64,000 nucleotides of DNA from Fibrobacteria bacterium (GTDB lineage: Bacteria; Fibrobacterota; Fibrobacteria; UBA11236). The position numbers and the translations under genes were made by a program. The stretch spans positions 1 to 64,000 of the forward strand of contig JANYDA010000032.1 in NCBI GenBank assembly GCA_025360005.1, in the 5' to 3' direction. The notes under the pieces are model-generated. The model ran no database searches. It had not been told where the DNA came from and saw only the letters and a list, made by a program, of their open reading frames with translations. Below are positions 52,932 to 56,512 of the stretch, in pieces. Position 1 is the stretch's first letter. Each line of letters starts with the position of its first letter.

Positions 52932-53990
52932 TCAGGCGGAAGCCGCGCCCATCATGGTCTCATGCGCTTTGAGCACCATCCGCTCGGTGGTTTCCCATCC
53001 CACGCATTGATCCGTGACGGAGACCCCGTAACGCAGCTGTGACCTGTCTCCGGGGATTTTCTGGCTCCCCTCGAACAGATTGCTTTCCACCATCGCTCCC
53101 ACCAAAGCCGAATTCCCGGCCATCTTCTGTTCCACTACGTTCTGCCAGACCACTTCCTGAAGCTCATGGCGCTTCTGGGTATTGCCATGGCTGCAATCCA
53201 CCACCAGCCGGGCCTCCATGCCGGCCTTCTTCAATTGCCCGGCCGCTTCCGCGATGCTGTCCGGATCGTAATTGGGCTTGGATTTTCCGCCGCGCAAAAC
53301 CACGTGGCCCCAGGGATTCCCGCGCGTCTTGACGATGGCGGTGCGGCCGTCCGAATCCAGGCCCAGGAAATTATGCGCGAAGCGCGCCGATTGCATGGCG
53401 TCCACGGCCACTTGGATATTCCCGTCCGTGCCGTTCTTGAAACCCACCGGCATGGATAAACCGCTGGCCATCTGGCGATGGGTCTGGGACTCGGTGGTGC
53501 GCGCCCCGATGGCCGCCCAGGTCACCAGATCCGCGATGTATTGCGGAACGATGGGATCGAGGAATTCCGTGGCCGCGGGGACGCCCATGGCGTTGATCTG
53601 CAGGAGCAGGCGGCGCGCCTCGCGCACGCCCGTGGAGATATCGCAGGAATCGTCCAGGAAAGGATCGTTGATGAATCCCTTCCAGCCCACCGTGGTACGC
53701 GGCTTCTCGAAGTAGACGCGCATGAGCAGGAAAAGCTTGTCCCCCACCTTGTCGCGCAGCGCCTTGAAACGCCGCGCATATTCCAGCGCCGCGTCGGTAT
53801 CATGGATGGAGCACGGGCCCACGATGGCCAGGATGCGCGGATCCTCGCCCGCCAAAATGGCCTGGACTATCTTGCGGCCCTCCACCACCGTCTGGATGGC
53901 CGCCGGTTCCATGGGCAGCATCCGCTTCAATTCTCCCGGAGCGATCAAAGGCACTATCTCCCGTATATTCAGGTTCTCGGTAGTCGGCAT
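52932..53990 (-). CDS. aroG: 3-deoxy-7-phosphoheptulonate (DAHP) synthase, class I
   Basis: Joins phosphoenolpyruvate and erythrose-4-phosphate, the first step of the shikimate pathway to Phe, Tyr and Trp. ATG 53990, with GAGAGGAT upstream, gives 352 residues, matching AroF/AroG/AroH (about 350). Family blocks include I-V-G-P-C-S-I-H-D, R-V-Y-F-E-K-P-R-T-T-V-G-W-K-G, G-A-R-T-T-E-S-Q-T-H-R, G-F-K-N-G-T-D-G and D-C-S-H-G-N. The enzyme is normally feedback-controlled by an aromatic amino acid; which one cannot be read here. Transcription appears to be controlled by the attenuator upstream. The frame runs open to 54212, but that part is the leader. Confidence 0.96.
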   Translation of the reverse strand: MPTTENLNIREIVPLIAPGELKRMLPMEPAAIQTVVEGRKIVQAILAGEDPRILAIVGPCSIHDTDAALEYARRFKALRDKVGDKLFLLMRVYFEKPRTTVGWKGFINDPFLDDSCDISTGVREARRLLLQINAMGVPAATEFLDPIVPQYIADLVTWAAIGARTTESQTHRQMASGLSMPVGFKNGTDGNIQVAVDAMQSARFAHNFLGLDSDGRTAIVKTRGNPWGHVVLRGGKSKPNYDPDSIAEAAGQLKKAGMEARLVVDCSHGNTQKRHELQEVVWQNVVEQKMAGNSALVGAMVESNLFEGSQKIPGDRSQLRYGVSVTDQCVGWETTERMVLKAHETMMGAASA

Positions 53991-54050: not shown

Positions 54051-54080
54051 AAAAAACCCCCGGGTATTCCCGGGGGTTGG
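54051..54080 (-). terminator. Attenuator terminator of aroG
   Basis: On the minus strand CCCCCGGG (54076-54069), loop AATA, CCCGGGGG (54064-54057), then TTTTTT (54056-54051). It is a textbook intrinsic terminator placed 60 bases before the aroG start, downstream of the leader peptide. Confidence 0.88.
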
Positions 54081-54119
54081 TGTTTCGGCTCGAAGCGGCG
54101 CGAATTCCCTAACCCCCGG
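54069..54119 (-). promoter_or_regulatory. Antiterminator alternative pairing
   Basis: CCGGGGGTTAGG (54119-54108), which spans the end and stop codon of the leader peptide, can pair with CCAACCCCCGG (54080-54070), leaving one A bulged. The second strand is also the 5' arm of the terminator, so the two structures exclude each other. Confidence 0.75.
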
Positions 54120-54171
54120 CGGTTTCCCGCCAGAAGTAGAAGAAATACGAGCTGCTGAAAGCGTTACGCAT
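54109..54171 (-). CDS. Aromatic-rich leader peptide of aroG
   Basis: A 20-codon frame, ATG 54171 to TAG 54109, encoding M-R-N-A-F-S-S-S-Y-F-F-Y-F-W-R-E-T-A-G-G. Six aromatic codons are consecutive (Y-F-F-Y-F-W); in total there are four Phe, two Tyr and one Trp. The enzyme downstream makes the precursor of all three. The start is about 12 bases from the -10 box with only GGA as ribosome site, so the leader RNA is very short before the ATG. Directly after the aromatic run, GGCGG-GAAA-CCGCC can form a small hairpin. The peptide itself need not have a function; ribosome stalling on its aromatic codons is the expected signal. Confidence 0.85.
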   Translation of the reverse strand: MRNAFSSSYFFYFWRETAGG

Positions 54172-54183
54172 GGTTCCAATGCA

Positions 54184-54212
54184 AAGATACCGCGCGCGCG
54201 GCTTCCGGTCAA
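54184..54212 (-). promoter_or_regulatory. Promoter of the aroG leader
   Basis: On the minus strand TTGACC (54212-54207), a 17-base spacer and TATCTT (54189-54184). The -35 matches five of six consensus bases. Transcription would start about ten bases before the leader ATG. Confidence 0.7.
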
Positions 54213-54305: not shown

Positions 54306-55586
54306 TCAACCTGGCGGCACCCGCACATTCCTCATGATCCAACCCAGCCACGCCCTCACCGTGGACGCCCTGCGGCCCGGCGTGGACGCGCCCAATCCGG
54401 TGTGTGCGCGGATGACATCCGCCAATTCACCGGTGGCGATCTTCTCCGCACGGAATCCCCGCTCCATCAGCAGCTTAAGCGATGCGCGCAAGCTTGGGAC
54501 TGAAAGCATGCAGGCGAGCAGGCCCCTGGTCCTATCGGCCCGGGAGCGAAGCGCGTTGAACGCCCCTCCTGCAGACGTGCACTGGAAGGAGCCGCCCTGG
54601 CGCCGCAACAACCCAAGGTAGCACGCGGCATTGGCGTAATAATCGCCCTGCCGCTCATCGAACCCGAAGGATTCGCCGATCCCGGCTTTGGTAACCTCGC
54701 TGTTACCTGCCGCCCGCACGACATCGACCACCTTGTCCAAATCGTTGGCCTGAGGGAAGACCCCCTCCGGCTCCGGTCCGGGTTGCGCGCCCGCCAGCAT
54801 GGCGTTGAAATCGACGTCCGCGCGCGGCTCTTCCAGGCAATAAGCGTGGTTGCGTACCACCCGCAGGTCCCCGAAGCCCCCGCCGAACGCGAATTCGCTG
54901 AGAAAGTACTGGTCGTTGCTATAGGTGAAGAAGATCGGGATTACGCGCTTGCGCGTCAAGGCCGACCAATGCAGATACGGATACCACAATTGGCGGATGT
55001 GGAAATCCTCGCGCCGGCCGCGCTTGGCCTCGATCAAATAGACGGCATCTTCCCCTTCGTAGCCGGCATCCACCTCGATTTGCACGCGGGACACGTCCAC
55101 CGGCGGCCCGTCCAGCGGAGTAGGAAACGCGAAACTCCCCGAGAACAGGCGGCCCCGCAAAGTCATGCGCATGGCCGCATCGCCGCAAAAGGCGGGCAAC
55201 AATCCGGCCAGGTAAGCGAAGTCCAGGGCCTGGGACTCGCTGGCATCCTGTCCGCGGGGAAAGGTATCATAGCGGTTCAGATCCGCCTGGGATTGGAACC
55301 TGCGTACCGGCGGAGTTACCTCCGCCGGGAAGCGGAAAAAACTTTTCTGGGCGGGATCCGGGAACAGGACGTAGTGGCCGTTGCGGACCGGAAACAGCGC
55401 CAACGCCTTTTCGGCCAGGATGGCCGGACGCTCCGCCAAGGTGTCGATCTTGGCCATCAGGCGGGGCTCCCGGCCTCCGAACGCTTTCAACTGGTCCGCG
55501 CTCACCCTGAAAATCCCGTCCCGGGCCAGGGTTTCCTCCACCGGCATCCGCTGGAAAACCCTCTGCCAGGCTTCGTCGCGTTCCAT
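54306..55586 (-). CDS. Type II restriction endonuclease (PD-(D/E)XK type)
   Basis: 426 residues. A nuclease core is visible at about residues 168-200: V-Q-I-E-V-D-A-G (Asp173) and Y-L-I-E-A-K-R-G (Glu186, Lys188), spaced as in PD-(D/E)XK enzymes and followed by H-I-R-Q-L-W-Y-P-Y. The last 120 residues look like a winged-helix DNA-recognition region. The start overlaps the methylase stop (TGATG), so the pair is translationally coupled with the methylase first, which suits a restriction system that must protect its host. Cleavage site unknown. Together they would cut unmodified incoming DNA. Confidence 0.82.
   Translation of the reverse strand: MERDEAWQRVFQRMPVEETLARDGIFRVSADQLKAFGGREPRLMAKIDTLAERPAILAEKALALFPVRNGHYVLFPDPAQKSFFRFPAEVTPPVRRFQSQADLNRYDTFPRGQDASESQALDFAYLAGLLPAFCGDAAMRMTLRGRLFSGSFAFPTPLDGPPVDVSRVQIEVDAGYEGEDAVYLIEAKRGRREDFHIRQLWYPYLHWSALTRKRVIPIFFTYSNDQYFLSEFAFGGGFGDLRVVRNHAYCLEEPRADVDFNAMLAGAQPGPEPEGVFPQANDLDKVVDVVRAAGNSEVTKAGIGESFGFDERQGDYYANAACYLGLLRRQGGSFQCTSAGGAFNALRSRADRTRGLLACMLSVPSLRASLKLLMERGFRAEKIATGELADVIRAHTGLGASTPGRRASTVRAWLGWIMRNVRVPPG
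54691..54706. repeat. Exact GTAAC-N6-GTTAC palindrome, site 7
   Basis: In the restriction endonuclease gene, encoding G-N-S-E-V-T; full 18-base form GGTAAC-N6-GTTACC. Confidence 0.8.
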
Positions 55587-56512
55587 CAGGCTTTGTAGTT
55601 GGTGATGACGATTTCGTTGATGCGTCCGCGGTGCGCGGCTTTCGAATTGATGGACCGCGAGGCGGGCACGCGATAGATGGTGGACCGGTAGGAGGAGTAA
55701 AGGTTCTCGAAAAAATCGTCCTTGGGATCAGAGTTCTTGGGATCGGAATTGCTCAACATCTGGTAGATCCCCTGGCGATGCAAGGCTGTGAACATCGCCG
55801 CCAATCTGGCCTGCTCCGCGTCCCCGAAAGGAAGTTTGCTGTATGACGTGAAGCTCGACGTGCTGCTGATGGGCCGGTAGGGAGGATCATAATAGATGAA
55901 GGATCCGGTTTTGAAAGGGGCATCCGTGCGGCCCAGGTAACCGAAGTCGCCCCAGCGGATGGTGGCCTTGGCCAGCAGCTTGGCGGCCCCGCGCAGGTTC
56001 TCGGCATCCACGATGGTAGGCCTGACGTATTTGCCGAACGGTACGTTGAATCCGCCGGCCCGGTTGACGCGGAACAGGCCGTTGTAGCACGTCTTGTTCA
56101 GGAAAAGGATCTGCGACGCGCGTTCCACCCAAGCCTGCGAATACTTGCGGAAGTCCATTCCCGGCCGCGCGGAGTTCAACTCCTCCCGCACCCGCAAGTA
56201 GCGCGCCTTCCTCTTCGCCTCCCCCAGCTTCAGGTAGTCCCTCTCCATCTGCTCCAATACGCTGATGAGCGGCTCCGTAGCGCGGCGCACCGTTTTGTAC
56301 AGAAGCACCAGCTCCTCGTTCGCGTCCATCAAATAGGCGGAGTCGATGGGGAACTTCTGCATTACGTGAAAGAACATGGCGCCACCGCCCAGAAAAGGCT
56401 CGAAGTAATTGCGCACGCTCCCGTCCCGCAGGGCCTTGGGAAAATAGCCGGAAAGCTTGTCCAGCAGTTGGCCTTTGCCGCCGGCCCATTTCAGGAATGG
56501 CCTTACGCTCAC
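55586..56512 (-). CDS. Adenine-specific DNA methyltransferase (Dam/D12 class)
   Basis: 308 residues from GTG 56512. SAM-binding motif L-K-W-A-G-G-K-G-Q-L (7-16), F-E-P-F-L-G-G-G-A-M-F-F (38-48), the family segment L-F-L-N-K-T-C-Y-N-G-L-F-R-V-N-R-x-G-x-F-N-V-P-F-G (137-160) and catalytic D-P-P-Y (209-212) identify an N6-adenine enzyme of the alpha class, to which Dam and DpnM belong. GATC recognition is therefore possible but not proven. It begins four bases after the KimA-like permease gene and overlaps the endonuclease gene. Confidence 0.93.
   Translation of the reverse strand: MSVRPFLKWAGGKGQLLDKLSGYFPKALRDGSVRNYFEPFLGGGAMFFHVMQKFPIDSAYLMDANEELVLLYKTVRRATEPLISVLEQMERDYLKLGEAKRKARYLRVREELNSARPGMDFRKYSQAWVERASQILFLNKTCYNGLFRVNRAGGFNVPFGKYVRPTIVDAENLRGAAKLLAKATIRWGDFGYLGRTDAPFKTGSFIYYDPPYRPISSTSSFTSYSKLPFGDAEQARLAAMFTALHRQGIYQMLSNSDPKNSDPKDDFFENLYSSYRSTIYRVPASRSINSKAAHRGRINEIVITNYKA

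Follow-up and report, generated by a model that had tools for sequence, protein, structure and literature searches.

A probable leader-peptide attenuator of DAHP synthase in a genus of Fibrobacteria

DAHP synthase catalyses the first step of the shikimate pathway and thus feeds the synthesis of Phe, Tyr and Trp. In the pheL and trpL leaders of Escherichia coli, attenuation follows a four-strand logic, with the control codons on the 5' side of a protector hairpin and the stop codon in strand 2.

Two of the described systems concern DAHP synthase itself. In Corynebacterium glutamicum the leader aroR precedes aroF, and when Phe is limiting the stalled ribosome is reported to increase transcription (Neshat et al., 2014, via PMC11802643 and PMC4046766). 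The uORFC-13-1 motif, which comprises an upstream ORF with one or more Phe codons, a promoter and a terminator stem, was found exclusively upstream of aroF (PMC8632094). A precedent for a leader ORF on a leaderless mRNA, here with functions in trans, is trpL (rnTrpL) of Sinorhizobium meliloti (PMC7298713). We found no earlier description of such an attenuator in Fibrobacter or Fibrobacterota in open-licence papers, in agreement with the first-pass annotation of the present locus, to which none was known for this phylum.

Architecture of the region upstream of the DAHP synthase gene

All elements of the locus lie on the minus strand of the window, i.e., the whole 64-kb stretch of DNA that was analysed:

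52932-53990, minus strand: type I-alpha DAHP synthase (AroFGH), 352 aa, the putative target of the attenuator (TIGR00034, 477 bits for a cut-off of 173; PF00793, 276 bits)
54184-54212, minus strand: sigma70-type promoter TTGACC-N17-TATCTT (TTGACC at 54212-54207, TATCTT at 54189-54184), predicted from sequence; identical hexamers and 17-nt spacing in all six genus members
54109-54171, minus strand: leader ORF of 20 codons, MRNAFSSSYFFYFWRETAGG (MRNAFSSS-YFFYFW-RETAGG), with ATG at 54171-54169 and TAG at 54111-54109; all six genomes preserve its start codon, reading frame and stop position
54130-54147, minus strand: six consecutive aromatic control codons, Y-F-F-Y-F-W, read from the sequence
54103-54146, minus strand: predicted protector (1:2) hairpin, in which the control codons pair with the end of the leader and with an invariant GGGAATTCG past the stop codon; it encloses GGCGG-GAAA-CCGCC
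54111-54119, minus strand: strand 2, 5' arm of the predicted antiterminator, CCGGGGGTT, reaching from the final codons of the leader into the first base of its stop codon
54070-54078, minus strand: strand 3, 3' arm of the predicted antiterminator, AACCCCCGG, common to the terminator
54078-54055, with a T run to 54051, minus strand: intrinsic terminator with a 10-bp stem, AACCCCCGGG-AATA-CCCGGGGGTT, recognised by sequence and folding

The closest solved structures to the product of 52932-53990 are Tyr- and Phe-sensitive DAHP synthases, and the start of the gene is preceded by the Shine-Dalgarno sequence GAGAGG. Directly upstream of the attenuator, positions 54306-56512 of the minus strand encode a type II restriction enzyme (DUF6996/DUF6997/DUF7226; PADLOC REase_II) and a Dam-family adenine methyltransferase.

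The promoter TTGACC-N17-TATCTT, found where the first-pass annotation had placed it, is the sole promoter-like site within 500 bases, 0.2 being expected. We also confirmed the reported 20-codon leader with its six aromatic codons in a row at 54171-54109, which reads ATG CGT AAC GCT TTC AGC AGC TCG TAT TTC TTC TAC TTC TGG CGG GAA ACC GCC GGG GGT TAG. It is the single short ORF (<=40 codons) of the window that has at least six consecutive aromatic codons, and such ORFs were absent from 60 first-order Markov simulations. Searched on both strands, the 4.98-Mb genome contains a single instance of the codon pattern [FY]x4-W, and no terminator was found at the other [FY]4W matches within the genus.

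The leader ATG lies 12 nt past the -10 box, with no clear Shine-Dalgarno sequence; in the six genomes, whose -10 box is invariant, this distance is 7, 10, 10, 12, 13 or 22 nt. If transcription begins about 7 nt past the -10 box, the 5' leader would measure 1-16 nt, and the ATG of G003 would be at, or adjoin, the first base. Given this short distance and the lack of a clear Shine-Dalgarno sequence, the leader mRNA is probably leaderless or nearly so, a feature on which the first-pass annotation had not remarked.

Downstream, CCGGGGGTT (54119-54111) is the exact complement of AACCCCCGG (54078-54070), forming nine Watson-Crick pairs, and a duplex as strong was obtained in 0.5% of shuffles. The competing pairing proposed initially for 54119-54108 was thus recovered, with its extent reduced to the 9 bp between 54119-54111 and 54078-54070. 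The proposed terminator with its AATA loop and T run is present at 54078-54051, and the stop codon was rightly placed in the antiterminator strand, TAG (54111-54109) overlapping strand 2 at the same place in six genomes. The fold of 54176-54045 was 5.2 s.d. stabler than those of shuffled sequences.

The unoccupied RNA is predicted to fold into the long protector hairpin followed by the terminator. When folding was constrained by a ribosome at the Trp codon with strand 4 incomplete, strand 2 paired with strand 3 in 6/6 genomes, and when the ribosome was placed at the stop codon, only the terminator was left, again in 6/6. For the complete transcript with a stalled ribosome, the minimum-energy fold still favoured the terminator, so the switch, like its classical counterpart, has to work kinetically. 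The inner GGCGG-CCGCC hairpin and the pairing of the GGGGGUU core of strand 2 can coexist according to these predictions.

Conservation within the genus

The same element precedes the same gene in all six genomes of the genus, the five other leaders being MRHVSSNSYFFYFWRETTGG, MCNVPSNAYFFYFWRETSGG, MRNATYSTYSFYFFWRETSGG, MHKLIAAAYFPYFFWRETPGG and MGNIQANAYFFSSRRATLGG. The leader frame, the aromatic codons and both alternative stems, which the first-pass annotation had suggested looking for in relatives, were thus recovered in all five. Two leaders contain an extra in-frame codon and the frame is kept through 3-nt indels; in five of the six genomes the run region still has five or more aromatic codons, and the same proportion keep the Trp codon, directly at the protector hairpin. 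The assignment to the class Fibrobacteria is deduced from a neighbouring genus, in which the Fibrobacter-type domain TIGR02145 occurs in about 70-88 copies.

A covariance model built from four sequences retrieved the remaining two genus members at 83 and 70 bits, and the six-sequence alignment was based on this model. Protector helix cells were 90-98% paired across the six sequences, and the antiterminator kept 51 of 54 pair cells, versus 12-39 when slid. The terminator stem was paired in 100% of cells, with two-sided changes in 3 pairs, and the whole structure had 5 such pairs versus 1.3 in shuffles, counts that are modest, coming from six related sequences of one genus aligned to the model, and that bring support rather than proof. 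The covariation score exceeded those of 500/500 shuffles and of all slid versions. In G005, a strand-3 base used by both stems changed from G to A and its terminator partner from C to U, and strand 2 has there a fitting U. In G001 (L007 1358-1480), TAC TTC TGG became TCC TCC CGG (S-S-R), which leaves Y-F-F; two of these codon changes convert U-G pairs of the protector hairpin to C-G, so that the RNA fold was kept while Tyr, Phe and Trp codons were lost. The DAHP synthase gene of G001 lies across a contig break.

Among 168 genomes of the phylum, strong matches to the covariance model (70-139 bits) were confined to the genus. Of the weaker matches (24-34 bits), those that were checked lacked an aromatic leader; two were examined in full, one of them in the genome under study, and proved to be plain terminators. 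The I-alpha DAHP synthase was restricted to the genus among 61 relatives, and a phylum-wide search placed its remaining carriers outside the class. The second DAHP synthase of the same genome is of type I-beta; the regions upstream of its gene, trpE and pheA in this genome contained no leader with a terminator.

Mechanism and alternative explanations

The region combines the hallmarks of an attenuator: codons for the pathway products in a short ORF, an intrinsic terminator between this leader and the gene, an antiterminator that uses the 5' arm of the terminator and excludes it, and a stop codon positioned to bring strand 2 under the terminating ribosome. The codons match the gene, whose enzyme feeds the synthesis of all three amino acids. 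The conservation in the genus and the ribosome-placed folds in six genomes support the ribosome-mediated attenuation proposed in the first-pass annotation, and a classical transcription attenuator controlling DAHP synthase is, from sequence and folding models, the best explanation and very likely the correct one.

From these elements we infer the following course of events. Transcription would start a few bases ahead of the leader AUG. As long as charged Phe-, Tyr- and Trp-tRNAs are available, the ribosome would reach UAG and cover strand 2 (54119-54111); strand 3 would then be free to pair with strand 4, and the terminator would halt RNA polymerase near 54051. When one of these aminoacyl-tRNAs is scarce, the ribosome would stall within 54147-54130 and leave the protector hairpin incomplete, the GGGGGUU core of strand 2 would pair with strand 3 before strand 4 is synthesised, and the polymerase would continue into the DAHP synthase gene. 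If the leader were not translated at all, the protector hairpin would form and termination would be the default. A stall at the first Tyr codon could leave the inner GGCGG-CCGCC hairpin in place and yet free the GGGGGUU core; in the folding models, each of the six codons could therefore serve as a stalling site.

The amino acids to which the leader responds are the point on which a different reading has most weight. The attenuator could be real but answer Phe or Tyr only, the other aromatic codons being passengers, a possibility that we consider serious although the less probable one. Species differ in how many Phe and Tyr codons their leaders contain and in which order, and the G001 leader keeps only Y-F-F; in C. 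glutamicum, it is Phe, not Tyr, to which aroF with its F-Y-F leader responds (PMC11802643). The losses in G001, which include Trp, and this C. glutamicum precedent are the reasons why we do not consider sensing of all three amino acids as established. On the other hand, Trp is kept in 5/6 genomes, directly at the protector hairpin, and F, Y and W are also mixed in the tandem and single leaders of other lineages. The element might moreover act in trans in addition to cis attenuation, through its leader peptide or the small RNA left by termination, as peTrpL/rnTrpL does in Sinorhizobium, whose rnTrpL is a leaderless mRNA with such functions (PMC7298713). The conserved FWRETxGG end of the peptide would fit this idea, but these residues coincide with the RNA stems, which explains their conservation, and no target is known, so we regard it as improbable.

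Explanations that dispense with leader translation appear far weaker. The hairpin might merely terminate the restriction enzyme gene (54306-55586), the ORF being incidental: the element has this gene upstream of it in the same orientation, and a homologue of the enzyme is likewise found before it in G001, G003 and G004. Yet an invariant promoter and an ORF conserved in frame lie between the enzyme gene and the hairpin, the antiterminator is conserved as well, and terminators found with the same model behind other genes lack such an ORF, which makes this explanation very unlikely. We give hardly more credit to a riboswitch or T-box sensing an aromatic amino acid or a tRNA without translation. 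Alternative stems and a terminator would be expected there too, but the coding frame survives indels and tRNA was the only Rfam family to reach its cut-off over the 64-kb window. The best sub-threshold matches over the element were moreover leader-peptide families, Leu_leader (RF00512; 22.2 bits for a cut-off of 50) and Phe_leader (RF01859; 21.2 bits for a cut-off of 55).

Ribosome-mediated attenuation, hitherto discussed mostly for Proteobacteria and Actinobacteria, thus very likely regulates the first shikimate step in Fibrobacterota too. The six natural variants, one of them without a Trp codon, together with the tandem versions described below, make the weighing of several amino acids by one leader directly testable.

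Other lineages and comparison with known systems

An aromatic leader followed by a terminator is present at eight of the 78 distant DAHP synthase loci that could be tested, versus 0.15 expected in shuffled sequences (L008, L033, L046, L052, L055, L062, L065 and L077; one Latescibacterota, six Chloroflexota and one Desulfatitalea). In the simple duplex test, the Latescibacterota, Desulfatitalea and most Chloroflexota leaders had no significant antiterminator and are consequently candidates only. Several Chloroflexota leaders share a Y.YYFFTG-like motif. In a tree of 97 DAHP synthases, the distribution of attenuated genes required five changes, at least three of them forced by strong branches, which implies repeated gain or loss of the arrangement. 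The scan thus extends putative aromatic attenuation to separate branches of this tree, in Chloroflexota, Latescibacterota and a Desulfatitalea. In the Chlorobiaceae L020, L023, L025 and L034, a conserved aromatic-rich short ORF (ending in SFFAA[IV]IYFF) lies about 230 bases before DAHP synthase; these four loci were left out of the attenuator count for lack of a recognisable intrinsic terminator.

In another family of the phylum, L120, L123, L124 and L125, which form one clade (support 99), have two leader-terminator units in series before DAHP synthase. The units span about -390 to -26 relative to the start of the gene, with leaders such as MNTKIYTCPFYFYFWLKT and MTNYKSAFYFYFWYFTPAILRGHG, and all eight have a predicted antiterminator, 0-9% of shuffles being as strong. 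The first unit alone is preceded by a promoter-like site recognised by eye (L120, L125). No Rfam family reached its cut-off in the tandem loci or in L008. Tandem leader-ORF attenuators are known from Salmonella mgtCBR, where they respond to two different signals (PMC3641672); two tandem units for the same amino acids had no precedent that we could find in open-licence papers. We hold tentatively, with a confidence somewhat short of even, to the fuller picture of a leaderless or near-leaderless mRNA whose Y-F-F-Y-F-W run integrates all three aromatic amino acids at the entry of the shikimate pathway, in a phylum for which attenuators have not been described, and of a two-attenuator version gating the same enzyme in another of its lineages.

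The kind of mechanism is already known from pheL, trpL, C. glutamicum aroR-aroF and uORFC-13-1, and is new for Fibrobacterota within open-licence papers. The Fibrobacteria element shares with E. coli pheL and trpL the protector, antiterminator and terminator logic and the placement of control and stop codons, whereas these leaders control pheA and trpEDCBA and the present one would control DAHP synthase with mixed F/Y/W codons. S. meliloti trpL likewise has its leader ORF at or beside the 5' end of the transcript (PMC7298713), but it is a Trp leader of trpE(G) in Alphaproteobacteria, and for the Fibrobacteria element the leaderless start is a prediction. The uORFC-13-1 motif, compared here by description only, also places an upstream ORF with Phe codon(s), a promoter and a terminator before a DAHP synthase gene; it differs in using a U run as Phe codon(s) and in its occurrence in Acholeplasma and unidentified environmental sequences (PMC8632094). 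In C. glutamicum, DAHP synthase is similarly preceded by a leader peptide, aroR, whose aromatic codons are F-Y-F; it belongs to another phylum and has three such codons without Trp, whereas the Fibrobacteria leader has six, Y-F-F-Y-F-W. The likeness of the two is one of arrangement.
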